Shown in pieces: positions 4,006 to 42,472 of a DNA stretch of 60,400 nucleotides; position 1 is the first letter of the stretch, and each line of letters begins with the position of its first letter. Both the position numbers and the translations under genes were made by a program. Origin of the DNA: Kiritimatiellia bacterium (GTDB lineage: Bacteria; Verrucomicrobiota; Kiritimatiellia; RFP12; JAAYLN01); assembly GCA_017509565.1 (NCBI GenBank), contig JAFWPM010000254.1, positions 1 to 60,400 of the forward strand, given 5' to 3'. The notes below the pieces were generated by a model. The model ran no database searches, was not told where the DNA came from, and worked only from the letters and a program-made list of their open reading frames with translations.

Positions 4006-6225
4006 ATGATCAAACGCATCAGCCGACCTTCTTCGTTCCCGCGAAGCGAGGCCGTCCTTCGCGGCATCGCCGCGGCCGTCCTTGCGGGAGCGGCTTGCAC
4101 CGCGACCGCCTCCGCCGACACCATCGACGCCTCGGCCTTCGCCGGACATTTCGACATCATGTTCCCCGGCTACGCCGGAGCGGCGCCGGTCGAGAACTTC
4201 CCGGTCCTCGTCCGCCTTTCCGCCGAGCGCAACGGCTTCGACTACGCCGCATGCCAGGCCCTCGGCGCCGACCTGCGCTTCGCCGACGCGGCCGGCAACC
4301 TCCTCCCCTGCGAAGTCGATACGTGGACCCCCGGCGGCGAATCGCTCGTCTGGGTCAAGGTGCCGTCGCTCTCCCGCTCCACGCGCATCACCGCCTACTA
4401 CGGCTGCGCCAACCCGCCAGCCAACACGCCGTCGGCCGTGTGGTCCAACGGCTTCGTCGGCGTCTGGCACCTCGGCGGAAGCGCGCTTCCGCTGAAGGAG
4501 TCGTCCGGCGTCGGCACGGACTTCGATACGTCGAAGGACAACGGCGAGACCCTCGGCGCGCCCGGCGCCGTCGGCGGCGCGGTGGATTTCGCGACGGGGG
4601 GACGCACCGGCCGCCTGAGCGCAGCCGACGATCCCGACCTCGACGGATTCAGCAGCTTCTCCGTCGAACTCTGGTCGAAACAGGCGGCGGGGGCGGATTA
4701 CCTGTCATACATGCTCACGAAAACCGCGACTGGCGCGTATGCCTACACCCTCTGCCAGAACAAGGGAACGACGACGACGAACAGCGTCTTCTACGTATTC
4801 TCTGACGCGACGAACGACAAACGGAAAAACATCGCCGGAGACAGCCGGAACCTCGTCGTCCCCACGATGGGCGTCTGGAACCACCAGGCTTTCGTCCGCG
4901 ACCTCGCGAAGGAAAAATCCTTCAGCTATCTCGATGGCACGCCCGTGCCGGAGGGGGGCAAGACGCTGACTGCCGATGAAATGGTGGCGGTCTGCGACAG
5001 CTCTTCCCCGCTCTACCTCGGGAACGCGACCGGAAACAACCCCTCGGCAGCCTTCCCCGGCCAGATCGACGAGCTGCGCATCTCGAACGTGGCGCGGTCG
5101 GCCGACTGGGTGAAGGCGACGCACGACTGCGTCGCGGACGCGGACTTCGCCGCCTACGAGGTGGGCAACGACTGGACGAAGTATGCGCGCAAGTTCACCG
5201 TCTCGTTCCCCGGCGCGCCGGACGGGACGCTCGCGGACTTCCCGGTTCTCGTGAAGGTGGCGGAAAACAGCCCCGCCGGCTTCTCCTACGCCGACTGCGC
5301 CAAGCCCGAGGGACGCGACCTGCGCTTCGCCGACGCCGACGGAAACCTCCTCGCCTGCGAGGTCGACACGTGGAACACGAACGGCGCGTCGGCCGTCTGG
5401 GTCAAGGTGCCGGCGCTCACCGCCTCGACGAAGATCACCGCCTACTATGGCTGGTCGTTCGCGCCGCCGGTCGATGCGACCAACGTCTGGGATTCCGGCT
5501 ACGTCGGCGTCTGGCACCTCGGCGAAAGCGCACTGCCACTCAAGGAGTCGTCCGGCACCAGCACGGACTTCACGGAAACGATGAACGGTGGCGAGACGCT
5601 TGCATCTTCCGGCGCCATTGGCGGTGCGGTCGATTTCACGTCCGGCACCGGAACAAACCGCCTCGAAGCCGCAGACCACGATGCGCTCGACGGTTTCTCA
5701 AGTTTTACTGTGGAACTTTGGTCGAAACAGATTAGCCCGTGCAGCGGTCACCAGCCGTATATACTCACGAAAATCGCATCCGGCCAATACGCCTACCTTT
5801 TCTACCAGAACAAGTCGGCGCAGAGTGTCTTCAAGATTGGAATTGGGGGTACTGACAACGGAAACATTATTGATGGGATATCTATGGTTCCCTTAATGGG
5901 CGACTGGAACCACCAAGTCGTCATCCGCGACACGGAGAATGGCAAGGCTTTCGCATTTCTCAACGGTTCAAACTTGTCATCAGATGGCGCACCTCTGGTA
6001 AACGTTTCAGCCATCTCCAGTAGCACCTCCCCGCTCTATCTTGGCAACGCAAATGGGCAAGGTAAAAACCCATTCCCCGGCCAAATCGACGAGCTGCGCA
6101 TCTCGAAGGTCGCTCGGTCGGCGGCGTGGGTGAAGGCGACGCACGACACGGTCGCCGCGCCCTCCTTCGCGCGCTATTCCGCGACCCGCGGCAACAACGA
6201 CGCGACAGTCATCTCCATCCGGTAG
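4006..6225 (+). CDS. Secreted protein with tandem DUF2341 plus LamG/concanavalin-like modules
   Basis: I chose ATG 4006 because AAGGAG lies 6 bases upstream and a signal peptide follows (MIKRIS, hydrophobic run, ending near ASAD). The 739-residue protein holds two similar units of about 345 residues. Each has a DUF2341 segment (FPVLV, DLRFADA.GN, WVKVP, ITAYYG) followed by a LamG-like lectin fold (VGVWHLG, ALPLKESSG, VELWSKQ, FPGQIDELRIS, ARSA.WVKATHD). The two halves are an internal duplication. Such modules bind carbohydrate at or outside the cell surface; no catalytic motif is visible. It lies between GH5 and hydrolase-like genes. The C-terminus, RYSATRGNNDATVISIR, is nearly repeated in the fragment at 10540-10773. 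Confidence 0.85.
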   Translation: MIKRISRPSSFPRSEAVLRGIAAAVLAGAACTATASADTIDASAFAGHFDIMFPGYAGAAPVENFPVLVRLSAERNGFDYAACQALGADLRFADAAGNLLPCEVDTWTPGGESLVWVKVPSLSRSTRITAYYGCANPPANTPSAVWSNGFVGVWHLGGSALPLKESSGVGTDFDTSKDNGETLGAPGAVGGAVDFATGGRTGRLSAADDPDLDGFSSFSVELWSKQAAGADYLSYMLTKTATGAYAYTLCQNKGTTTTNSVFYVFSDATNDKRKNIAGDSRNLVVPTMGVWNHQAFVRDLAKEKSFSYLDGTPVPEGGKTLTADEMVAVCDSSSPLYLGNATGNNPSAAFPGQIDELRISNVARSADWVKATHDCVADADFAAYEVGNDWTKYARKFTVSFPGAPDGTLADFPVLVKVAENSPAGFSYADCAKPEGRDLRFADADGNLLACEVDTWNTNGASAVWVKVPALTASTKITAYYGWSFAPPVDATNVWDSGYVGVWHLGESALPLKESSGTSTDFTETMNGGETLASSGAIGGAVDFTSGTGTNRLEAADHDALDGFSSFTVELWSKQISPCSGHQPYILTKIASGQYAYLFYQNKSAQSVFKIGIGGTDNGNIIDGISMVPLMGDWNHQVVIRDTENGKAFAFLNGSNLSSDGAPLVNVSAISSSTSPLYLGNANGQGKNPFPGQIDELRISKVARSAAWVKATHDTVAAPSFARYSATRGNNDATVISIR

Positions 6226-12600: not shown

Positions 12601-14964
12601 TCAACGCCCAACCGAATCAAACGCTCGCAAGGCCGTTTCGCGCAGGGCGAGGATGTCCTCCCCTTTTTGAGTTTGCACGCGCCTGCGCCGCCAATGCCAG
12701 CCTGTCCTGTCCCAGGCCGCATTCGACCGCTTCATCACATCGGCGAGGACGTCTTCCCTGCCGGCCGCCTTGAGCGCGTCGATCAGGCGGGCATCTTCAG
12801 CCGCCTCGCGCAGCGTCTCGTAGAGCGCGGTAATGGCGACATCCTCGCCAAGCGGCATTACCGCCTGGTAGTCGAGGTTGAGGACGCCCCAGGAGTCTAT
12901 GTCCCACACGTCGATGTTGGGGTGGCAATACTCATAGTAGGCGAACCCGTTGAAGCCAAAGCGCCGGCATCTCCAGACCATCTCGCGGCCAGTTCTGCCG
13001 GCAGGGTGGCAATACATCGCATTGATGGGGCGGGGGTAAAGCCAAATCCATTCCATAAGCGCGCTGGCGGTGCTGGGCAGTCCATCTTCGGACGCCGACT
13101 CCCCATACCGGTCGTCGGCGTGGTCTGGTCGAGGCGTCGCGAGATAGGAGTGCGGGCATGAAATGTCAATGCAATCGTTGTATTCCGGCAGCAAGGCCCC
13201 TGCGACAGTCTCCGGTGAGTAAAAGGGAGAGTTGCCATCGCCTTTTCCCCTACCTGCATAGAAAAGCGGATCGCAGTGGAGACGCAGGTCCGGTGCGGCG
13301 TCCTTGACAAGACGGGCGAGGGCCATCACGGAACGGGCGTTGCCCGGCTGCGGCTCATCAGGCAGGAAAGCGGCGACGCGACTGCTCTCCAGACCTAAAA
13401 GGCGGCTACGCGCGAGGAATGCCCTTGCCCCATCCTGAATTCTCAGGCGATCGTTTTCCGAAAGCGCCGCGAACTCTCCTTTGGCGACGCGCTTGTAGAG
13501 TTCCGGGTCGCACCACTTGTCGCAGCCAACGCTGGCTTGCGGCACAGAGGAGAAGAATATGGCCTCCTTGGATCCAGGCTCAGGAAGAAAGCGGGTTGTG
13601 GTCGCGCCAATGCCGATGTATCGCTCGGCGTCTCGCGCCACGCGGCGCTCGCTCTCGAAAGGATACTGCTTCGTGAATGGCTCGTAGGCGTATATCCACA
13701 TCGACTGCTGCGGAAGTGACAGATCGACGATTGTCAGCGGAATCGGGAGGGCCGCGCTTGCAGAGGCCGCTGGGTGAGTCGCGCTAGCGGCCACCGCGCG
13801 TAACGCACCGTCGCGCAATCCCGGCGCCGCGCCGCTCGTGGTGAGGCGCAGCATGACGACGCATCCTTCGCCCGGCCCTAGCGGGACTGCGCAGGGGAAC
13901 CCCGCGACCTGCGACGGGTTTGCCAGGTATCGGCGAAGGAAGTTCTCGCGCGGAATGGCGTTCGTGAAGAAGAACGGGACAAGGTCGATCTCGTCCCTGT
14001 CGCCGTTGTTTATGCCGAATGCGTTCTCGGTGGCGAGCTTGACGCGTTCCAAGGCGGTGATCCGCCGCCTGGGCGGCGAAATCCGCATCGCGCCGCCAAC
14101 GAGCAACTCGACCGCCACGCCATCGCCGAAGCCATCTGCCGACAGGCCGATGGATTGCGGCGCGTCAGTTCCGTTCACTACGGCGAAATAGCGGCTTTCT
14201 GTCTCATTCAACGCCATGGTGAGCGGGAAATCCGCCGGCGTCGTGCCAGAGGGTTTTGAATTCAGGCTAGGCGTGGGCATCGGGAGTATTGAGACCGCAC
14301 CGCGCTCTCCGCCGGGGAATTCGAGCGCACCGTCAGACGCTATGCCGTCGATGGCCTCCGGGTATCGCGATGAGACTTCGCCGTCACCCCAGACGTAAAC
14401 GTCGTCCAGGACAGTGCGGGATTCTGGCGGGACGGCCTGGAAGGAGAGGCGCAGGAAGTGGCCAGTGCCTCTGCAGCGCAACCGTGTGATGGCGCCCGTC
14501 GTTGAAAAGGCGATTCGATCATGCCAGTTGGCGCGGTCTTCGGAGAATTCGACGAATCCCCCCGCCTGGTGGCACTGCGCATGAAGCAGGGTCACTTCAC
14601 TGAATTTGCAGGGGCGCTTGAAGTCAAAGGAAACAACAAGCGGCGAAGCGTCTTTCCGGCCCACAACCTGGGTGTCGGCTTCGGCCGGATGGCGGCGGAA
14701 GAGACGATAGGCGGGGACGGGTTCCCCTTTTGCCTCACGGGTATCGGAGGGGGCTTCCGGCGATGTCTCCCACTCGTATTCGACGCCGGTGAAAAGCCTG
14801 TCGCCGAACCAGCGCTGGTTCGGCGTGAGGAGCAGCCCCTCCGGAGCGCCGGACGGGTCTGGTGTCCCGTCAAACCAGCGGATAGGGATGGGAGCCGCCA
14901 TGGCCGAGGCCATGGCGGCTATCGCCAAATGAGCGGCAAGACAGGGATGGCGCGTCAGGTGCAT
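12601..14964 (-). CDS. Secreted DUF4091/GH123-like protein
   Basis: The protein has 787 residues with a signal peptide (about residues 1-23, ending AMAAP). Residues 90-210 look like a discoidin/galactose-binding beta-sandwich (FKRPCKFSEVTLLHAQ, FVEFSEDRANWHDR, LDDVYVWGDGE). The C-terminal half is a barrel with DUF4091 character: LPDEPQPGN contains adjacent Asp536 and Glu537, the kind of pair used by GH123 beta-N-acetylgalactosaminidases, and FNGFAYYEYCH and WGVLNLDY follow. GH123-like activity on amino-sugar glycans is a reasonable guess, not a certainty. It starts 7 bases after the FGE-like gene and is followed 28 bases later by the phosphoesterase gene, so one operon is likely. Confidence 0.75.
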   Translation of the reverse strand: MHLTRHPCLAAHLAIAAMASAMAAPIPIRWFDGTPDPSGAPEGLLLTPNQRWFGDRLFTGVEYEWETSPEAPSDTREAKGEPVPAYRLFRRHPAEADTQVVGRKDASPLVVSFDFKRPCKFSEVTLLHAQCHQAGGFVEFSEDRANWHDRIAFSTTGAITRLRCRGTGHFLRLSFQAVPPESRTVLDDVYVWGDGEVSSRYPEAIDGIASDGALEFPGGERGAVSILPMPTPSLNSKPSGTTPADFPLTMALNETESRYFAVVNGTDAPQSIGLSADGFGDGVAVELLVGGAMRISPPRRRITALERVKLATENAFGINNGDRDEIDLVPFFFTNAIPRENFLRRYLANPSQVAGFPCAVPLGPGEGCVVMLRLTTSGAAPGLRDGALRAVAASATHPAASASAALPIPLTIVDLSLPQQSMWIYAYEPFTKQYPFESERRVARDAERYIGIGATTTRFLPEPGSKEAIFFSSVPQASVGCDKWCDPELYKRVAKGEFAALSENDRLRIQDGARAFLARSRLLGLESSRVAAFLPDEPQPGNARSVMALARLVKDAAPDLRLHCDPLFYAGRGKGDGNSPFYSPETVAGALLPEYNDCIDISCPHSYLATPRPDHADDRYGESASEDGLPSTASALMEWIWLYPRPINAMYCHPAGRTGREMVWRCRRFGFNGFAYYEYCHPNIDVWDIDSWGVLNLDYQAVMPLGEDVAITALYETLREAAEDARLIDALKAAGREDVLADVMKRSNAAWDRTGWHWRRRRVQTQKGEDILALRETALRAFDSVGR

Positions 14965-14971
14965 TTCGTCG

Positions 14972-16369
14972 CTATTTCAGCCCTGCGGTGCAGATTACCC
15001 TGAAACCCAGATTGGCGAAGTGCTTCGACGGGTCCGCGTACAAGCGCCTTGCGGAGCGCGCGTAGTTTGCGTTGAACTGCCAGGAGCCGCCACGCCTCAC
15101 CCGAGCTGCAACAGTCGCGCCAGAAAGGGTTTTTGCGACATCGTTCGGATTGACATTCAAGAAACCCGCGTTGGCGCTGACGTCTGCTTCATACCAGTCG
15201 CCACACCATTCAAGCACGTTCCCCAGCATATCGTAGAGTCCCCAGTCGTTTGGGGCGTATGAGCCAACGATAGCCGTGCCGCAGTCTGGGTCGTAAGACG
15301 AGTTTGCGGTAGTGTTGGTGACATTGCCGGCATAGCGGGCAATCTTTGAAAGGTTTGCATCGACGGTCTGGTTGCTGTCACCGTTAAGGGCCACCTTGAC
15401 TTGCATGGCGGATCCATCGGGATAGTATCCGGAGCCATTTCCCGCGCGACAGGCATATTCCCACTGCGCCTCACTGGGGAGGTCGAAGTCAAGGCCCGTC
15501 TTCAGGCGCAGAAGCCCCAGGAAACTGTCGTTCGTCGGATCCTGCGCCAGCGTTCCGGCTGCGGTTGTCGTTGAAGACGAAGAGGCGTGGGTAGTCCGGT
15601 GGGTGTTGCGGATTTCGTTGAATGAGATGTTTTCCATTGGGCGCGAGCCGCCTTCAACGCTGAAATACGCCTTTTGGGCTGAGTTGGTGGCAACAAGCCC
15701 CCATTGGGTCTGCGTGATTTCAAAGACGCCGATATAGTAGTTGTTTGTGAGGGACAAGTTGAAATTCTCCTCGGTTGTGACGCTGCGCTGCGTTCCTTCG
15801 GCGGTTGTGGATCCCATCGTCCATGTGATGTCGCGGGCCATGATCTTTCGCATAAGGAGCATGGTAGTCTTGTAGAGGTCGCTGGTGACGCCGCCGGGAA
15901 CGAAGTCGGCTGCTGGGTAGTAGCGTCTTGGCGTTGCCGCCGTGGCGGCGGACGATATGTCCACGACCATGTAGTCCGGGGTGTTGTCGGTAGTCCAGGC
16001 GGTCACCACGGCACGCGCGCCGCCGTCTGGGATTTTGTGGTCGGGCCACGAGAGCGCAGGTTCCCATGTGATGGCGCGCGAACCAGCCTCGACCAGCTTC
16101 CAGACGTCGCCCTGGGCGTTGCAAACGGCCGCGCCGCCTATGCTTGTCCATCCGGGGTCGTCGGACGAGGCGCTTGTGTTGGCGTTGGTCTGCACGTCCA
16201 GAGTGACAACGGCGTCGCCGCCTTCAAGCGTGTAGGCGACGGTCACCGTGCGGCTTGGGTTCTGGGTCATTGCGACAGACGTTATTTGGGGCGTAGCCGC
16301 CAATGAGGCAAAGGCGGAGAAGGCCAGCGCGAAGAATGCGGTATCCAATCTATTGCTGGTGAAGTTCAT
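14972..16369 (-). CDS. Secreted formylglycine-generating-enzyme-like (SUMF1 fold) protein, copy 1
   Basis: ATG 16369 has AAAAGGAG upstream. The 465-residue protein has a signal peptide (ends SLAATP), an N-terminal beta-sandwich (residues about 25-170: ITSVAMTQ, VTVAYTLEGGDAVVTLDVQTN), then an FGE-sulfatase/SUMF1 fold (LPSEAQWEYACRAG, WGLYDMLGNVLEWCGDWY, RVRRGGSW, LGFRVIC). True FGE enzymes oxidise a sulfatase cysteine using a copper-binding cysteine pair near RGGS..C..C; here the block is QFNANYARSARR, without cysteine. No sulfatase gene is in the window. A structural or binding role is therefore more likely than catalysis. It follows the small secreted protein gene by 49 bases. A paralogue at 38248-39606 has the same layout and the same C-terminal AGLK. 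Confidence 0.85.
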   Translation of the reverse strand: MNFTSNRLDTAFFALAFSAFASLAATPQITSVAMTQNPSRTVTVAYTLEGGDAVVTLDVQTNANTSASSDDPGWTSIGGAAVCNAQGDVWKLVEAGSRAITWEPALSWPDHKIPDGGARAVVTAWTTDNTPDYMVVDISSAATAATPRRYYPAADFVPGGVTSDLYKTTMLLMRKIMARDITWTMGSTTAEGTQRSVTTEENFNLSLTNNYYIGVFEITQTQWGLVATNSAQKAYFSVEGGSRPMENISFNEIRNTHRTTHASSSSTTTAAGTLAQDPTNDSFLGLLRLKTGLDFDLPSEAQWEYACRAGNGSGYYPDGSAMQVKVALNGDSNQTVDANLSKIARYAGNVTNTTANSSYDPDCGTAIVGSYAPNDWGLYDMLGNVLEWCGDWYEADVSANAGFLNVNPNDVAKTLSGATVAARVRRGGSWQFNANYARSARRLYADPSKHFANLGFRVICTAGLK

Positions 16370-16418
16370 GATTTGACTCCTTTTGTGGGGTGAGGTTGAA
16401 GGTTGTTGGGTTGAAGTC

Positions 16419-16670
16419 CTATCTCAGGACGATGGCGGTGGCGATAGCTTTGTCGGAGCGAAGCGCCACGCCTTTGCCGGCAAGGGAATGCGTCCCTGTG
16501 ACGAGCGGGGCGGAAGCCGATGCCATGACGCTGGTGTGGGCCGCGGACGCGGCAATGGGGTCGCCATCGACGATGCATGTGGCGGCCGTGGCCAAGCCAG
16601 CCGCCATAGCGGCACCGATGGCTATGCAACAGCGTAGTTTGAGCATTGGGGGTCTTGCGGAATTTTCCAT
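16419..16670 (-). CDS. Small secreted protein of unknown function, copy 1 (paired with an FGE-like gene)
   Basis: The 83-residue protein starts at ATG 16670, where AAGGAGG lies 5 bases upstream. A basic start and hydrophobic run (CCIAIGAAMAAGLATAA) form a signal peptide; the mature part is only about 50 residues. It contains DGDPIAASAAH and ends GVALRSDKAIATAIVLR. The gene at 39629-39913 encodes a paralogue (SGNPVAAATEG and GIALRTDKAIFFTLIIR) in the same place, upstream of a second FGE-like gene. I do not recognise the family. The conserved pairing suggests a functional partner of the FGE-like protein, perhaps a surface or shed component. Confidence 0.75.
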   Translation of the reverse strand: MENSARPPMLKLRCCIAIGAAMAAGLATAATCIVDGDPIAASAAHTSVMASASAPLVTGTHSLAGKGVALRSDKAIATAIVLR

Positions 16671-16840: not shown

Positions 16841-17677
16841 ATGAAAATAAAGCACCTGGAGCATCTGGAGAACAGCGCCTATTTCGGCAACGGGAAGATG
16901 CCGTGCGTCGTGCGCGAGATGAAGGACGCGCCCAGCAACGCCTTTGTCGCTCTGCACGACCACGGCTTTTCGGAACTGGTTGTTGTCGCGTCGGGGAGCC
17001 TTCAGCATATCCACACAAAGGGCATCGAACGGATATCCACCGGCGACTTCTTCGTCATCCACCCCGGCGAACGCCACGGTTTCGCCGAACTTGCCGAGGG
17101 GACATCGGTGTTCAACATCCTTTTCGATAACGCCGCAATGCCCCAGGCCATGTCCCTCGCGGGATGCCCCCTGACGCCGCTCCTCTTCCCGCATGATGGC
17201 GACAGGGTCCGTGCGCGGCCATTGGGGCGCGTCCCGCGAAAAAGCCTAGGCGGCATCATCGGGATAATCAAGGCCATGCGCGGGGAAGGCGCCGGGCACC
17301 GCCTTTTCCGCCACGCCGTCTGCGCCTCGCTCTTCGCGGCGCTTGCCCTCACCCTGTCAAGATATCTGCGTGACCAGCCAGACGACCCGTCGGAGACCAT
17401 CAAGGGCGAACTGGACTTCATCGCTGAGAACTATATGCGGAAAATCACCCTCGGCGAACTCCGCGCCGTCTCCGGGCGTTCCATGCGGGCGCTCTACAGG
17501 GAATTTTACAGGTTCTGCGGCAAAAGCCCCGGCGAATACATCATTTCCCTGCGCGTCGCCAAGGCGAAAGCCCTCCTTTCGCGAAACACGCCAACCTTGG
17601 ACGAAGTGGCGGCGCAGACCGGTTTCTGTGACGCCAGCCACCTGTCGCGCACCCTTCGCGCCCATAAAGATTACTGA
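16841..17677 (+). CDS. AraC-family regulator with N-terminal cupin sensor
   Basis: The 278-residue protein has an arabinose-binding-like cupin domain (residues 20-110: HDHGFSELVVVASGSLQH, GDFFVIHPGERHGF) and a C-terminal AraC DNA-binding domain (residues 180-278: ITLGELRAVSGRS, YREFYRFCGKSPGEYI, LDEVAAQTGFCDASHLSRTLRAH). It is divergent from the small-protein/FGE-like operon with about 170 bases between the genes, the usual arrangement for a regulator and its target. The signal it senses is probably a sugar or glycan fragment. This is inferred from the family and position. Confidence 0.85.
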   Translation: MKIKHLEHLENSAYFGNGKMPCVVREMKDAPSNAFVALHDHGFSELVVVASGSLQHIHTKGIERISTGDFFVIHPGERHGFAELAEGTSVFNILFDNAAMPQAMSLAGCPLTPLLFPHDGDRVRARPLGRVPRKSLGGIIGIIKAMRGEGAGHRLFRHAVCASLFAALALTLSRYLRDQPDDPSETIKGELDFIAENYMRKITLGELRAVSGRSMRALYREFYRFCGKSPGEYIISLRVAKAKALLSRNTPTLDEVAAQTGFCDASHLSRTLRAHKDY

Positions 17678-35269: not shown

Positions 35270-37087
35270 TTACTTGAAGAGCCCTTCCGCTGAAGACTCC
35301 GAGTGGCGCTGGTACATCGCGGCGGCGGTTTCGCGGCAGGCGCCGACAAGCTCGGGATACGGCACGTCGCAGATTGAGACAAAGCCGCATGGGAAGTTCT
35401 CACCGTCAAAGCGACCGGTGAGCGGCTGGTCCTGGTACTGGAACCAGTGGCAGCCGACGTAGCGCGGATCGTCCAGGCATGTTTCAACGTAGTGGCGGAA
35501 ACGCGCCGCACGGTCCTCGGCCCCGAAGGCGTGTACCAGACCGTGGGAGAACTGCCCACGCCCGCCCGTGCAGAAGTGGAACTCGCCAATCAGGAGCGGC
35601 TTGTCCGGCGCGCCCCGCGGCAAGTCGCAGGAAGGCTCCAAGTCGTAGTGGTTTGCGCTTACGACATCGCAATGGCGTGCCGCCGCAAGCCACACCGAGT
35701 CAATCTCCCCGAAGTCGTTGTGGATGCGCGAGCCAAGGTAGAGGTGATTCGGAAGGGCCTCCTTGAGTGCGGCGCGGATGGTCGAGTAATAGGCCTCCGC
35801 CACGGCGGCGACATTCGTCCCGCAGCCGTCCCAGCCGAGTTCGTTATCGACGAATACGCCCAGGCACCAGGGGTCATCCTTGATTTTCGCGGCAAGAATC
35901 GCGGCCGCCGCCGCGATGTCTTCGGCGAACCTTGGTGAGAACACGTCAGGGACGGCACGCCCGTGGGCCTTGCTTCCGTTCCATGTCGGGAGCACGGTTC
36001 GCGACGAGAAGTCGATGCAGGCGCAATACGGTGTGCGGCGCGACTCCCAAACGCAGTCGTGGTTCCAGTTGCCGATGGTGTTGAGGCCCCATGCCCTGAA
36101 GCGGCGGTGCACGGCCCCGGCATGGCGCGCCCTCCAGCCGTCGCCGTATTTGCGTTTGAGGTTTTCGCGCAATGGCCACGCTTCCGCAGCATCCGACCTG
36201 CATTCGAAGAAAGACTCGCGCCCGGCAACGCGCGTAGGCAGTCCCGGATAGACGCTGCACACGCCGAGGGACCAAAACAAATGCCCGTCGGGATTGACGA
36301 ACCACCAGCGGCCATCAACCTTTTCCGTGCGGAAGAAGCCGGTCGCCGCGAGTTGCGGGCCATCCGCCCAGCCGCCGAATCTGTCGGCATTGGGGACCGG
36401 GCCGGCGGCGTTGGCGGCAAGCCAGGCCTCCTCTGCGTCGCGCGCCTCGGCCAATTCGGCGTCGGAGTGAATCTTGCCCGGCCACTCGTCGTGGCGGAAT
36501 TGCCCATAGCGGTCAACGAACGGGAAGAAAGTTCCGGAGGGGATCACCTTCGGCCTCAGGGCGACAAACGCGGTGTCAACGCCCAGGACGACGGGAAGGA
36601 TGCGGCCAGCGGCGACCTGCACCGACGGCGATGGGGCCACATCGGCGGACACCTCGATCCGCCCCGTCCTTGAGAAATCGGGGAGGTCGCCCAACGATGG
36701 CACCTTGCCCAGCATTCCCTCCAAGTCCACGGGGGAGTCGGTGGCGTAGGGAGTGTCGTTGAGCGGGACGACGATCATGCGAACGCCGCCGGGCGGGATG
36801 CGGGTCGCGCGCCACGGGGCTTTCAACCGGCCATCCCCGTCCGAGGACATCCCGTCGCCGAAGACGGCGACGCGAACACGCTGCGCCTGATCGGTCGCGT
36901 TGCTCAAGGCGACGCGCACCTCGCCTACGCCGGAAAGGTCCCACGCCCCGATGCCATGCGGTGGCGCTATGCAAAGGCATGGGCGGCCACCGCCAACGGA
37001 TTTTTCCACGGCAAATGGCAGCGACTCCTCCGCCGCGCCGAACGCGACTGCGAAAAGCCACGCGGCAATGCAGGCAAGCATTTTCAT
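35270..37087 (-). CDS. Secreted GH50-like (beta-agarase-type) glycoside hydrolase
   Basis: The 605-residue protein has a signal peptide (ends AFGAAE), an N-terminal beta-sandwich (residues 25-190) and a TIM barrel. Barrel blocks fit GH50: WFVNPDGHLFWSLGV, WGLNTIGNW, VFVDNELGWDG with Glu416 as likely acid/base, LLIGEFHFC with Glu502 as likely nucleophile, and HWFQYQDQPLTGRFDGEN followed by GFVSICDVPYPELV near the C-terminus. GH50 members characterised so far cleave agarose; in a gut organism another galactan may be the substrate. Its ATG overlaps the stop of the sialidase-like gene (ATGA), so the two are translationally coupled in the second cassette operon. Confidence 0.8.
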   Translation of the reverse strand: MKMLACIAAWLFAVAFGAAEESLPFAVEKSVGGGRPCLCIAPPHGIGAWDLSGVGEVRVALSNATDQAQRVRVAVFGDGMSSDGDGRLKAPWRATRIPPGGVRMIVVPLNDTPYATDSPVDLEGMLGKVPSLGDLPDFSRTGRIEVSADVAPSPSVQVAAGRILPVVLGVDTAFVALRPKVIPSGTFFPFVDRYGQFRHDEWPGKIHSDAELAEARDAEEAWLAANAAGPVPNADRFGGWADGPQLAATGFFRTEKVDGRWWFVNPDGHLFWSLGVCSVYPGLPTRVAGRESFFECRSDAAEAWPLRENLKRKYGDGWRARHAGAVHRRFRAWGLNTIGNWNHDCVWESRRTPYCACIDFSSRTVLPTWNGSKAHGRAVPDVFSPRFAEDIAAAAAILAAKIKDDPWCLGVFVDNELGWDGCGTNVAAVAEAYYSTIRAALKEALPNHLYLGSRIHNDFGEIDSVWLAAARHCDVVSANHYDLEPSCDLPRGAPDKPLLIGEFHFCTGGRGQFSHGLVHAFGAEDRAARFRHYVETCLDDPRYVGCHWFQYQDQPLTGRFDGENFPCGFVSICDVPYPELVGACRETAAAMYQRHSESSAEGLFK

Positions 37088-38241
37088 GATGGTTTCCTTG
37101 TTGAAACTGCGCAGGAAGCCGGGACGCGGAAGCGCCCATTTCTGATGTCATCTTCCCGGAAGGCGGCGAAAAGGATCTGCCGCGTACCAGTGCGGTCGTG
37201 GTCGTAAACGACGGCGATGCGGCCGTCGGGGAGCTGCTGGCCGTCGGGATAGGAGACATTCTCGCGCCCAGTGTCCAAAGGCAGCGCCCAAGGCCATGTC
37301 GCGCCGTCGTCTTCGGAGAGATACGCCGTCATGTCGCGGCGTCCGTTTCCGGATTCGCCGGGGAGTCCGTTCTTCACGAGGAGGAGGTTGCCGGAAGCGA
37401 GCCGCCGGACGAAGAACCGCGAACTTGTGTGCGGCAGGGCGGATGGCCTGGGTTCGGTCCACGTCCATCCGCCATCCGCCGATTCGGCCTCCCATAGGGC
37501 GTTTGGCCCGGTTGCCGCGCGGATGTAGAGTCGCAGCCGCCCGCCCGCGAGTTCAACGATCTGGTGCTCGTCGAACGTCCGCTCGTTTTCCGGAAGAGTG
37601 GCCCCGCCGCGCTCAACGAAGGTTCCGCCGCCGTCGGTCGAGGCGTACACGCACGCGCTGGGCGCCTCCTTCCAGTGCGCCACGGGGAAGAGCCACGTGC
37701 CATCAGAAACGACCGTCGGCTTGCACATCATCACGCCACGCGCGATTTGCCTGAAGCACTGCGAGCCGGCAAGCGCATCTATGTCCGGCACGGCCTCCGG
37801 GTCGAGTTCGGCCATCATGAGCCTGTCGTTCGACGGGTCGCAACGACATCCGGCGTATTTGTCGGATGGATCGGCGGCTGGCGGACAGGTCCGCTCCGTC
37901 CACGTCCAGCGCAATACGCCGTCCGGCGACACCCAGAGTTCCGGATCGAACGCGCGGACGGGGCCGCCGGGGTCGGGATCGTAAACGAGGACTTCACGCC
38001 ATGTCGATCCGCCGTCGGCGCTTGTCGAAAGGATCAGGTAGTTGTCCGCGACCTCGCACCCGGTGGCGCTGGCGTACCACGTCGCCCAAAGGCGTCCGCC
38101 GGAAGGCGATGCAGCAAGCGACGGAATTCCCTCGTGGCAGCGCGTTTCTGGCGCGTATGGGCCCAGCGGGACAGTGAAGACCGCGCCGGCCATGCGCGCA
38201 ACGGCGCGGCGGGCCGGCGCGGCTGAATGGGTGTTTGCCAT
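37084..38241 (-). CDS. Sialidase-like BNR/Asp-box propeller protein
   Basis: The 385-residue protein has no clear signal peptide. Four Asp boxes mark a six-bladed propeller: SADGGSTW, STDGGGTF, SADGGWTW and SEDDGATW. HEGIPSLAASPSGGRLWATWY near the start and SYPDGQQLPDGRIAVVYDHDR near the end are typical of exo-alpha-sialidase-like proteins of environmental Verrucomicrobia and Planctomycetes. Many such proteins are not true sialidases. It begins 6 bases after the FGE-like gene stop and overlaps the GH50-like gene by 4 bases. The start could also be Met17. Confidence 0.8.
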   Translation of the reverse strand: MANTHSAAPARRAVARMAGAVFTVPLGPYAPETRCHEGIPSLAASPSGGRLWATWYASATGCEVADNYLILSTSADGGSTWREVLVYDPDPGGPVRAFDPELWVSPDGVLRWTWTERTCPPAADPSDKYAGCRCDPSNDRLMMAELDPEAVPDIDALAGSQCFRQIARGVMMCKPTVVSDGTWLFPVAHWKEAPSACVYASTDGGGTFVERGGATLPENERTFDEHQIVELAGGRLRLYIRAATGPNALWEAESADGGWTWTEPRPSALPHTSSRFFVRRLASGNLLLVKNGLPGESGNGRRDMTAYLSEDDGATWPWALPLDTGRENVSYPDGQQLPDGRIAVVYDHDRTGTRQILFAAFREDDIRNGRFRVPASCAVSTRKPS

Positions 38242-38247
38242 GTGCGG

Positions 38248-39606
38248 TTACTTCAGCCCGGCGGAGCAGACGACGCGGAAGCCGATGTGGTAGTAGCGGT
38301 CCGACACCGCGCTGCCGTCGCGATACGCCGGCCGGCAGTCGCCCGCCACGTTGCGCCAGCCCCCGCCCCGCCTCACGCGGTTCGCGCCCGCCGCACCGGA
38401 GAGGGTCTTCGCAGGGGCGGAGGGGTCGATGTTCACCGCGCCGCCGTATGCGTTGATGTTGTCCGCGTAAAAGTCAAGGCACCACTCCCACACGTTGCCG
38501 AACATGTCGTATACGCCCCAGGCGTTCGGAAGATAGCTTCCAACGATGGCCGTGCCGCCTGTCGCTCCGCACGACGGCTCGGGGTTGACGTAGGAAGTCC
38601 CGTTCAGAACCTGCCCGCCGTTGCGCTGGTAGCGCCCATGCAGGTTGAGGTTCGCGTCCGCGTCGGTGTTCAGGATGCCCGACCCGTCGCCCCACTTCGT
38701 GTCGCCGTTTCCCGCGCGGGCCGCGAACTCCCACTGGGCCTCGGAGGGGAGGTCGAACAAAATGCCCGTCCTGGCTTTCAGTTTTCCCAGGAAGGAAACC
38801 GGGTTCGGGGCGGCGGGCCAGTTGTAGGTCGCGTCCTCCGCCGAATTGCTGGAGTTGCGGATCTCGTTGTAGCACACCTGCTCCACCGGGCGCATCGCGC
38901 GGTCGGCCGGGTTGTAGAAGTATGACGGTGCGGGGCGGCTCGGCTGCACCAGGTCCCATTGCGCCTGGGTGACGGGGAACACGCCGATGTAGTAGTTATT
39001 CGTGAGCGTCACCTGGTGCGTCGCCTCGCGCGTCGCGTTTCGTTTCGTCTCCAGCGTCGTCGAGCCCATCGTCCACTCCACGTCTTTGGCCATGATTTTG
39101 CGCATGACAAGCTTGGTGGTCCGGTAGTCAGGGTTGCCGAGGATGCCGCCGGGAAGGAACTCTACCGCCGGATAGTATTTCTGCGTGTCTGGCTGGGCGG
39201 CGGCGGAGATGTCGACCACCATGTAGTCGGGAGTGTTGTCGGGCGCCCACGCCGTCACGACGGCGCGCGCGCCGCCTGCCGGGATCTTGTGGTCGGGCCA
39301 CGAGAGGTCGGGGCGCCAGGTGATGGTGTGCTGGCCGTCGCCCGTCACTTTCCGCCAGACGTCGCCCTGCGCGTTGCAGACCGCCTCGCCGCCGATGCTC
39401 GCCCAGACCGTTTCGCCGTTCACCACGGCGTTCGTCTGGACGTCGAGCGTCACTACCGCCGGGGCGTCAGCGAGCGTGTAGGTGACGGTGACAAGGCGGC
39501 TGGAGGCGTCCTGGGACATCACGACGCCGGAGACTTCCGGGGTCGAGGCCTGCGCCGCAAGGGCGGCGGCGGTTGCGAATGAGAGAAGAATTGCCGATGT
39601 TTTCAT
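38248..39606 (-). CDS. Secreted formylglycine-generating-enzyme-like (SUMF1 fold) protein, copy 2
   Basis: The 452-residue protein has a signal peptide (ends LAAQAST), an N-terminal beta-sandwich (VSGVVMSQ, VTVTYTLADAPAVVTLDVQTN) and an FGE-sulfatase fold (DLPSEAQWEFAARAGNG, WGVYDMFGNVWEWCLDFY, NRVRRGGGW, HIGFRVVC). It shares most of its length with copy 1, including DNTPDYMVVDIS, MRKIMA and the C-terminal AGLK. The cysteine region reads RNVAGDCRPAYRDG, so one cysteine is present where copy 1 has none; a full FGE pair is not evident. It lies 22 bases after the small secreted protein gene, with no strong ribosome binding site, which suggests coupling. Confidence 0.85.
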   Translation of the reverse strand: MKTSAILLSFATAAALAAQASTPEVSGVVMSQDASSRLVTVTYTLADAPAVVTLDVQTNAVVNGETVWASIGGEAVCNAQGDVWRKVTGDGQHTITWRPDLSWPDHKIPAGGARAVVTAWAPDNTPDYMVVDISAAAQPDTQKYYPAVEFLPGGILGNPDYRTTKLVMRKIMAKDVEWTMGSTTLETKRNATREATHQVTLTNNYYIGVFPVTQAQWDLVQPSRPAPSYFYNPADRAMRPVEQVCYNEIRNSSNSAEDATYNWPAAPNPVSFLGKLKARTGILFDLPSEAQWEFAARAGNGDTKWGDGSGILNTDADANLNLHGRYQRNGGQVLNGTSYVNPEPSCGATGGTAIVGSYLPNAWGVYDMFGNVWEWCLDFYADNINAYGGAVNIDPSAPAKTLSGAAGANRVRRGGGWRNVAGDCRPAYRDGSAVSDRYYHIGFRVVCSAGLK

Positions 39607-39628: not shown

Positions 39629-39913
39629 TTAGCGGATGATGAGTGTGAAGAAGATGGCCTTGTCAGTGCGGAGCGCGATGCCGTCGGACTCCCCGCTGGT
39701 GCGGTAGCGCAGTTCCAGCGGGGCGTCAGGGACGGCAGCTGCTGAGATGGTGCCAGTCCCGAGCGCGATTCCGGCCGAGGCGACGGAGCAACTGCCTTCC
39801 GTGGCCGCCGCAACGGGGTTGCCCGAGATGATGAACTGGTAGGCGAACGCCTGCGATGCCAGAAGCGCAAGCGAAAGCGCCGCAAAGCCGAGTGGCAGTA
39901 GTAGTTTGTTCAT
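39629..39913 (-). CDS. Small secreted protein of unknown function, copy 2 (paired with an FGE-like gene)
   Basis: The 94-residue protein starts at ATG 39913 behind AGGAGGAGG. A signal peptide (LLLPLGFAALSLALLASQAFA) leaves about 70 mature residues with SGNPVAAATEG, LELRYRTSGESDG and the ending GIALRTDKAIFFTLIIR. The paralogue at 16419-16670 shares the middle block and the ending. The two copies hold the same position, first in an operon and directly before an FGE-like gene. The family is not known to me. A single cysteine lies in EGSCSVAS. Confidence 0.75.
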   Translation of the reverse strand: MNKLLLPLGFAALSLALLASQAFAYQFIISGNPVAAATEGSCSVASAGIALGTGTISAAAVPDAPLELRYRTSGESDGIALRTDKAIFFTLIIR

Positions 39914-40032: not shown

Positions 40033-41202
40033 CTATTTGCGATTGAGCCTGCGCCAATCGCGCATGGTCATGCCAGTTCTGGAGCGGAAGAATTTCTGCA
40101 GCGCCAAATCGGTCTTCCAGCCGCAGAAGGAGGATATGGCGCCGATGGCGGTGTCCGTCTGGGCCAGGAGAGTAAATACCTTTTCAAGGCGGATGTGCTG
40201 GATTTCGTTCAGGACGGAATGCCCGGTGGCTTCGCGGAAGCGCATTTCGAAGAGCCAGCGCGAACATTCGAACCGGGCCGCCAGTTTCTCGGCTGTGAGG
40301 CCGTCGCACGCCTCGCGGCGGATCATGTCTATCGCCTCAAGAACGAACTTCTCATGGCGTCCGCGCCCGCCTGTCGATTTGCGACGCACCGCCATCAGCG
40401 GGCCAACGGTGTATGCGTTTCCATCACACGGGGTCTCAGGACCGCATCTATGTGAGATTTTTTCCCCAATCAATTTCGCCGCGAGGAAGCCGGCGCGCTC
40501 ATGGTCGAGCTGGATGCTTGAAATCGTCGGGACGGTCGTCTCGCATATCGCCTCGTTGTTATCGACGCCGAGGAGCGTCAAGTCATGCGGAATGCTGATG
40601 CGGGCGGCGCGCGCGGCGGCTACGGCATAGTAGGCCAAGAAGTCATTGACGGCGAATACGGCGCAATGACGGGGCAGCGCGGCCAACCAGGACGGAAGCC
40701 GCCCGATGAATGACGGCCATTTTTCGCCAGGCCTGTTAAAAACATGGCATGTCATTCCGGAACTCTCGCACAGGGCGCGGAACACCTGCAATCGGAGATG
40801 CGACCATGAATAGTCCGGGCAGACGCCAATTACGGCGTAGGCGGCGGGACGGCCGGCGGACAGTTCGCGGAAGGCGGCGCGCGCTATGGCCTCGTTGTCG
40901 GCCGCGACAAAGGCGGCGCCCCCGGCGCGCAGCGCGGGCGGCGGATGCAGATAGACCACCGGGACGTCGCCGAAGAGCCGTGGCGGAAGGCGCACTTCGT
41001 CATCGGAATTCTCGACGACGCACCCGGCGACCTTGTGGCGCGCGGCGAGAAGCGCCGCCAGGCGCTTCGGCTTCAGCCCCTTCTTCGGGACAATCTCAGC
41101 ATCCCACCCACGCGCCACGCAGTAGCGGCGCAATCCCGATAGCGTCGCCCCATGGATGCGGTCGCCAGATTCAGCATTCAAATATAGGATGGTTCGCTTC
41201 AC
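40033..41202 (-). CDS. XylR-like transcriptional regulator (sugar-binding sensor plus AraC domain), copy 2
   Basis: The frame is open to ATG 41307, but the family-like start is GTG 41202 (KRTILYLNAESGDRIHG), giving 389 residues; the upstream 35 residues look like leader sequence. The sensor domain has CAVFAVNDFLAYYAVAAARAA and LTLLGVDNNEAICE, typical of LacI-like folds. The C-terminal AraC domain has LTAEKLAARFECSR, IGAISSFCGWKTD and FFRSRTGMTMRDWR. It lies between the GH5-like gene upstream and the second cassette operon downstream, all on one strand, and probably controls one or both. It is a paralogue of the regulator at 1072-2256. Confidence 0.85.
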   Translation of the reverse strand: MKRTILYLNAESGDRIHGATLSGLRRYCVARGWDAEIVPKKGLKPKRLAALLAARHKVAGCVVENSDDEVRLPPRLFGDVPVVYLHPPPALRAGGAAFVAADNEAIARAAFRELSAGRPAAYAVIGVCPDYSWSHLRLQVFRALCESSGMTCHVFNRPGEKWPSFIGRLPSWLAALPRHCAVFAVNDFLAYYAVAAARAARISIPHDLTLLGVDNNEAICETTVPTISSIQLDHERAGFLAAKLIGEKISHRCGPETPCDGNAYTVGPLMAVRRKSTGGRGRHEKFVLEAIDMIRREACDGLTAEKLAARFECSRWLFEMRFREATGHSVLNEIQHIRLEKVFTLLAQTDTAIGAISSFCGWKTDLALQKFFRSRTGMTMRDWRRLNRK

Positions 41203-41323
41203 TGTCTGGAAAAATCGCCTGGAGCGACTTTCGACTGGACGCAGTCGAATAAGACAATCATAGCGAAATACCGTGGAAAAATCAAACCCGGCTTGAAAAT
41301 TTAACAAGTGGCGGCCGCAGCTG

Positions 41324-42472
41324 CTATGCGAAGCCCCGTGGACGACTGAAATCCTCGTCCGCGAGGTCGTTGAAGCGCCTGATCAGCGCGGTTTCGCGCG
41401 GGTCGTAGGGGCGGAGGGACGGGCGGTAGAGGTCGTGGAACCACTTGGTCATGTCCCATGTGCGGCTCTCCGGGGTGTCGGCGTCGAGGTCGCGCCACAT
41501 CGACTCCCACGGCTCGAAGGTCTGGTACTTGCCGGCGACGAACCCCCAGCAGGTGCAGCCGATGCGCTCGATGTAGTAGAGCGGGTAGGCGGAGAAGACG
41601 TCGTTGCCCCGGATGCGGGCGAGCCACTCCGTATTCACCATCGGGCGGCCGTAGTGGCGGCGCAAGTCGCGGATGGTCCTTATCTGGTTCTCGTATGTCT
41701 GGTAGCAGTGGTAGGAGACGATGTCGGAGAGTTCGCCGGCGAGGACCTGCGCCTTGTTCGGCGAGGCCGGGTCGCATCCGTAGTCTGCGCTCCAGAGGTC
41801 GGCCGCGAGCGGCTGCGCCGGGTTGATTGACCAGGCCAGCTCGAACATTTCGCGGAGCGGGCCGAGGCTCGCCTCGCCGCGTCCGGAGTTGCCCGGCTCG
41901 TTCCAGAGGTTCCAGAAGGCGACGCGGTCGTCGTTCCTGTACTTTCCCATGAGTTCCTCGCACATCGAGAAGAACTTTGGCTTGAGCACCGGGTCATCGA
42001 CCTGGGAGAAGCCGATTTCGCCGGGGAAGCTCCCGTGCTGGCTAAGCTTGCGGCCGCCGTGGTAGCCGATGTCGAAGGTCTGCGGCCCGGGCTTGGGGAG
42101 CTTCCAGATCGACTTCGGGCGCATACAGTCGTTGCCGAGGACGACTATCGCGCGCATCCCGTGGCTTGCCATGATGGAGAGCGTCCGCTCGAAGCGCTCC
42201 ATGAAGCCGTCGGGGTCCTCCAGCCACACGCCGAAGCCCTGGAGTTCGACGAGAATGCGGAGCGTATTGAACCCGATGGACTCCGCGACGGCGAGTTCGC
42301 GGTCCATTTCCGCGAAGCGCTCCTCGCATCCAAGCGCCTGCCACTGGTCAACGCGGTTGGCGCAGCTCGCGGGCATGTAGTTGCAGCCCCTCATCCAGGG
42401 CATGGTGTCATACCACGCCCAGGCGCGCTTCTTAGTCCATGGCCCATTGCGTTTGCCGGAAGTCCTGCTCAT
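41324..42472 (-). CDS. GH5-like cytoplasmic glycoside hydrolase
   Basis: The 382-residue protein has no signal peptide. It is a TIM-barrel glycosidase of clan GH-A: WMRGCNYMPASCAN near the start, TLRILVELQGFGVW, AFWNLWNEPGNS with Glu192 as likely acid/base, and PMVNTEWLAR with Glu282 as likely nucleophile. Relatives are often labelled 1,4-beta-xylanase, but the substrate is not predictable here. GGAG lies 8 bases before ATG 42472 and a TATAAT box precedes the gene. The XylR-like gene follows on the same strand, so the enzyme and regulator may be cotranscribed. Confidence 0.8.
   Translation of the reverse strand: MSRTSGKRNGPWTKKRAWAWYDTMPWMRGCNYMPASCANRVDQWQALGCEERFAEMDRELAVAESIGFNTLRILVELQGFGVWLEDPDGFMERFERTLSIMASHGMRAIVVLGNDCMRPKSIWKLPKPGPQTFDIGYHGGRKLSQHGSFPGEIGFSQVDDPVLKPKFFSMCEELMGKYRNDDRVAFWNLWNEPGNSGRGEASLGPLREMFELAWSINPAQPLAADLWSADYGCDPASPNKAQVLAGELSDIVSYHCYQTYENQIRTIRDLRRHYGRPMVNTEWLARIRGNDVFSAYPLYYIERIGCTCWGFVAGKYQTFEPWESMWRDLDADTPESRTWDMTKWFHDLYRPSLRPYDPRETALIRRFNDLADEDFSRPRGFA

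Follow-up and report, generated by a model that had tools for sequence, protein, structure and literature searches.

The closest described relatives of the proteins considered here are the members of the FGE/SUMF1 family (PF03781), which includes PvdO and EgtB. TvpA of Treponema denticola, a variable protein and DGR target, has a C-type-lectin fold, and an FGE-like fold is also seen in PorK/GldK of the T9SS. Another resemblance is to the ECF52 sigma factors. In ECF52 SCO4117, the sigma domain, a zinc finger, a TM segment and a carbohydrate-binding module are combined in one protein (PMC5826349; reviewed in PMC8999054), and the group is described as exclusive to Actinobacteria (PMC5826349).

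We compare these systems with a gene pair from a Kiritimatiellia bacterium. Kiritimatiellae are frequent in the guts of herbivores, and most of them are uncultured. A literature search found nothing joining Kiritimatiellae or Kiritimatiellota to a sulfatase-modifying factor, an ECF sigma factor or a sorting signal. The stretch of DNA analysed (the window) comprises 60,400 nt, positions 1-60,400 of the forward strand of contig JAFWPM010000254.1 (assembly GCA_017509565.1). Its own genome (G000) is 3.2 Mb in size and 90% complete. The original prediction, made from the sequence alone, placed two copies of a cassette in the window, each with a small secreted protein and an FGE-like protein. All four ORFs were found exactly at the positions it had given. 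They are listed below with their neighbors.

16419..16670, minus strand: small secreted protein A, 83 aa including the stop (ORF, AAGGAGG site, family profile match)
16422..16445, minus strand: C-terminal tail of A, IATAIVLR (alignments)
14972..16369, minus strand: FGE-like secreted protein A, 465 aa, with a signal peptide, an N-terminal beta-sandwich and an FGE/CLec-fold domain
14993..15784, minus strand: FGE-sulfatase-like domain of A, residues 196-459 (Pfam PF03781)
39629..39913, minus strand: small secreted protein B, 94 aa including the stop (ORF, family profile match)
39842..39913, minus strand: signal peptide of B, ending QAFA before YQF (sequence inspection, family alignment)
39656..39718, minus strand: predicted FGE-docking hairpin of B, LELRYRTSGESDGIALRTDKA (conserved block; the homologous segment is ordered only when joined to FGE)
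39632..39655, minus strand: C-terminal tail of B, IFFTLIIR (alignments)
38248..39606, minus strand: FGE-like secreted protein B, 452 aa (ORF, Pfam, pairwise comparison)
38269..39072, minus strand: FGE-sulfatase-like domain of B, residues 179-446 (Pfam PF03781)
16841..17677, plus strand: AraC-type regulator, AraC_binding and HTH_18, divergent from cassette A (Pfam)
40033..41307, minus strand: LacI/AraC-hybrid regulator, Peripla_BP_3 and HTH_18, upstream of cassette B (Pfam)
37084..38241, minus strand: BNR-repeat protein downstream of cassette B (Pfam)
12601..14964, minus strand: 787-aa protein with a signal peptide and no family match, downstream of cassette A

The small protein represents a new family, and the cassette is real and recurrent. 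Nothing meaningful was matched by the small proteins in Pfam, NCBIfam or PHROGs. Each small gene follows a strong ribosome-binding site, AAGGAGG in the case of 16670-16419 and AGGAGG in that of 39913-39629, and in the family alignment the two products share 38% identity. Alignments give a common layout, consisting of a signal peptide, a YQFI(I/V)SG(D/Y)P block, a stretch of variable sequence, then repeats, each some 15 residues long, that end in LEAR.RT..SDG.ALRSDK, and a final strand of four hydrophobic residues followed by R or K. Protein A is without most of the LEARYRT segment found in the rest of the family and without most of the hairpin. Within-family dN/dS values of 0.13-0.56 show purifying selection on the small gene. 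Its profile matches 32 of 192 genomes, the own genome being counted among them. In a phylum-wide sample of 388 genomes, matches were found in only six, all from the order of the window. The relatives bearing named records are Kiritimatiellae and Verrucomicrobia MAGs, many of them from ruminant gut samples. A further match lies at G040:C19:4200-4385, in a different genus of the same order. A phage origin was rejected, since phages gave only two 50-base matches and PHROGs nothing meaningful.

The pairing of the small gene with an FGE-like gene is far above chance. The own genome carries six close FGE-like paralogues, and each of the six has a small gene directly upstream, which adds four close pairs to the two in the window. 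The other five paralogues are 55-61% identical to the query. When small-protein and FGE matches were compared across the 192 genomes, the convincing small genes adjoined an FGE-like gene, mostly from 20-100 bp upstream, and the order was reversed in one subgroup (L080, L081, L086). Matches standing without such a neighbor were at contig ends (L078, L085, L088, L090) or were weak chance matches (L089 and others). Profile searches could have found the small protein mostly without an FGE-like neighbor, or placed it in a known family; they did neither. Seen from the other side, 121 distinct FGE-like genes were identified, and for 116 of them the sequence reaches 450 bp or more upstream. A recognised small protein or tail lies directly upstream of 56 of these 116 and another FGE-like gene directly upstream of 38, the two classes overlapping, and several of the remaining genes follow a diverged tail protein missed by the profile. 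Distances among small proteins follow those among their FGE partners (Mantel r 0.59 over 33 pairs, reached by 0 of 5000 permutations), a correlation that may in part reflect shared species history.

Some loci depart from the simple pair. At L070 (5234-9179), two FGE-like genes diverge, with a small or tail gene for each in between. At L006, a 236-aa secreted protein ending in ATVLFMR (4956-5666, minus strand) lies directly 3' of an FGE-like gene that has no small gene upstream. Tandem arrays of at least three FGE-like genes are seen at L149, L150, L154, L155, L157, L158, L097 and L098, and in L149, L150, L154 and L158 one array member carries the tail at its C-terminus.

The two FGE-like proteins of the window share their domain plan, as originally proposed, and are 55% identical over their full length. 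Both match Pfam FGE-sulfatase PF03781 (E 9e-29 and 2e-31), and the likeness to FGE/SUMF1 is one of fold and sequence family. Unlike that enzyme, the cassette protein is secreted, has an extra N-terminal beta-sandwich and a small-protein partner, and is without the catalytic Cys pair. The first catalytic Cys is absent in 108 of 109 FGE-like proteins, the lone match being a possible misregister, and the second is present in 48 of the 109. Judged by these residues, the protein is not a formylglycine-generating enzyme, and genes named sulfatase-modifying factor in Kiritimatiellae genomes are probably misnamed. The best PDB match of the FGE-like model is Treponema TvpA (E 6e-16), followed by PvdO and FGE, and this modelled likeness suggests a binding rather than a catalytic role. 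The protein is thus probably a non-enzymatic binder.

Two further assignments were considered. Despite the TvpA-like fold, a DGR variable protein was rejected, since a search of G000 for the reverse transcriptase RVT_1, in which the positive controls matched, found none, and no diversification by a retroelement is therefore indicated. The best NCBIfam match of both window proteins is PorK/GldK (E 8e-25 and 3e-20), but the scores of 88 and 73 bits lie far under the curated cut-off of 350 bits and give T9SS membership no support. A search of the own genome for SprA gave no match, and the control genomes were equally silent.

Structure prediction hints at how the two proteins meet. On its own, the mature L111 small protein is modelled as disordered (pLDDT 57, pTM 0.15). 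For a tethered model, the small and FGE genes of this locus, which are in the same frame, were joined by reading the single intervening stop as a residue, and the alignment was built from nine natural in-frame read-through pairs plus FGE rows. This model reached pLDDT 82 and pTM 0.82. Residues 41-60 of the small part rose from about 53 alone to pLDDT 77-80, with two strands, when joined to FGE, and the other residues of the small part, like the linker, stayed mostly below 50. The model gives a weak hint that the conserved hairpin docks on the FGE-like protein, although it is a single model, scored by pLDDT and pTM, with nine covering rows, in which the tether may bias the result.

The cassette most likely encodes a secreted glycan-binding or sensing module; physical docking, glycan binding and signalling are what we infer from the data. 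As the leading explanation, which we hold tentatively, we propose a secreted binding pair in which the small partner docks on the lectin-fold FGE-like protein, the tail is a separate element, and signalling is confined to a minority of relatives. The FGE-like protein, with a non-catalytic C-type-lectin fold and its N-terminal beta-sandwich, would bind polysaccharide or its fragments. The small protein would be its dedicated partner, a mostly disordered repeat peptide that docks through the hairpin. The hhhhR/K-COOH end may then form a distinct recognition or sorting tail. In the minority of relatives, the partner would belong to a larger protein, an ECF sigma factor or an anti-sigma-like membrane protein, and form its extracytoplasmic end, so that binding could control transcription. 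An unmatched family tied to FGE-like binding proteins, sometimes within transcription switches, offers a testable entry to the ways in which Kiritimatiellae sense and hold plant polysaccharides.

The tail itself supports a second, clearly less likely explanation, in which hhhhR/K acts as a signal for sorting to, or assembly at, the cell surface and the small protein serves to tether the FGE-like protein or to help in its export, with sensing secondary or absent. The ending is the most constant part of the small protein, with R or K in 53 of 60 tails. It is also found on large proteins of surface type that contain LamG, passenger-associated or InlB repeats (L153, L154, L067, L195, L204, L209). 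Among 334 complete genes of the own genome, ten have an hhhh(R/K) ending against 1.24 expected if positions are independent. Six of these ten lie outside the cassette (p 0.002), one of the six being a doubtful gene call. Against this explanation, the endings outside FGE cassettes have only five or six residues in common, which may have arisen independently, and no processing enzyme was identified. Furthermore, the association of the tail with signal peptides is not significant (p 0.37). Because of this result and the doubtful gene call, the tail outside the cassette is treated as a lead from sequence. Three of the own-genome proteins concerned (L195 2937-6194, L204 3-1646, L209 9819-13010) carry DUF2341 or LamG and an hhhhR end, and no FGE-like neighbor was noted for them.

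Fusions raise the possibility of signalling. An ECF sigma factor is present at 12 of 55 distinct loci with a tail and an FGE-like gene, and at all 12 the tail lies in a single stop-free frame. It runs on from the sigma factor itself at six loci and from a membrane protein whose gene is adjacent, at the anti-sigma position, at the other six. The Pfam domains Sigma70_r2 and r4_2 are present in four of the fused ORFs at cassettes as well as in the giant ORF L182, and the fused ORF of L068 also has a sub-threshold zf-HC2. Sigma-70 regions 2 and 4 are joined to the small protein in relatives and at one own-genome locus (C311, L002), not at the window loci. The reading frame is kept in three related species despite an 18-base change in linker length. 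In many fused ORFs the tail is preceded by a signal-like segment and by a start codon that has a Shine-Dalgarno-like site; a separate secreted product is thus possible and the topology of the fused form uncertain. These relatives resemble ECF52 in their sigma domain, TM segment, extracytoplasmic C-terminus and, in one case, the weak zf-HC2. The difference lies in the extension: here it is a short peptide of repeats that has a second, secreted FGE-like protein as its partner, whereas ECF52 carries a carbohydrate-binding module of its own. The window loci, unlike ECF52, have no sigma factor; their copies are the free secreted form beside AraC-type regulators.

The tail has other carriers. It forms the C-terminus of FGE-like proteins that precede another FGE-like gene (L075, L076, L082, L127) and of the FGE-like protein of L007. 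On own-genome contig C5, an ECF sigma factor is read in frame into a 1278-aa protein that matches CBM60 weakly (L182, 3786-7622, plus strand); it ends in DAFIMVVR, and its junction has an internal Shine-Dalgarno-like site, an ATG and a signal-like segment. Simple repeats of the TCAACCCCTCAAC type lie between genes at L111 (61-105), L048, L052 and L136, and are sometimes read within the linker before the tail.

Two further explanations give signalling a larger place. An unlikely one takes the cassette as an envelope sensing module, in which a secreted lectin-fold FGE-like receptor docks on a short hairpin peptide that is free or forms the extracytoplasmic end of a sigma (ECF) or anti-sigma protein, and hhhhR/K is an undescribed sorting or recognition signal common to large surface proteins. 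The other, which we regard as improbable, holds that sigma-dependent surface signalling is ancestral, as in the fused loci, and that the small proteins of the window, being free, are remnants derived from that state. The stop-free frame at 12 of 12 sigma-associated loci is in its favor, but these make up only 12 of 55 loci, and most loci have the free form, which is well conserved and present in several families. The leading explanation is limited here as well: at 39 of the 55 loci, both window loci included, the 1.6 kb upstream contains no sigma gene, and signalling is therefore not the general case.

It is quite improbable that the pair is a maturase and its substrate, in which case a PvdO-like or other FGE-fold oxidase would modify the small peptide, much as in systems that make peptide natural products. 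A single short conserved peptide gene ahead of an FGE-fold gene would be expected there, and the nearest folds include PvdO and FGE. However, the peptide has no conserved Cys (22 of 52 have none at all), the FGE Cys pair is absent, and the commonest neighbor families listed include no transporter or protease. The C-terminal tail-FGE fusions and the tandem FGE arrays with one tail also agree better with a partner protein than with a product that is released. Activation of the sulfatases of adjoining polysaccharide clusters, suggested by the Pfam name, is close to refuted and rejected here, since the catalytic Cys pair is missing and the own genome is nearly without sulfatases (two partial PF00884 matches), the residual doubt coming solely from its 90% completeness.

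The secreted binding pair also fits its genetic surroundings. An AraC-type regulator was predicted next to each cassette, and Pfam identified HTH_18 domains at both loci. The prediction of carbohydrate genes as neighbors stood in part: it holds for the BNR-repeat protein and for a borderline GH5 near cassette B (41324-42472, Pfam), and not for 12601-14964 and 35270-37087, for which no Pfam family was matched. The neighbor genes support a connection with polysaccharide use but not the suggested stand-in for SusCD, and a surface or secretion role of the cassette is plausible. Across relatives, cassette neighbors include GH127, GH28, GH5, GH2, GH92, BNR proteins, regulators and sigma factors; the pair thus recurs next to varied hydrolases, in agreement with the proposal of a reusable two-gene module.
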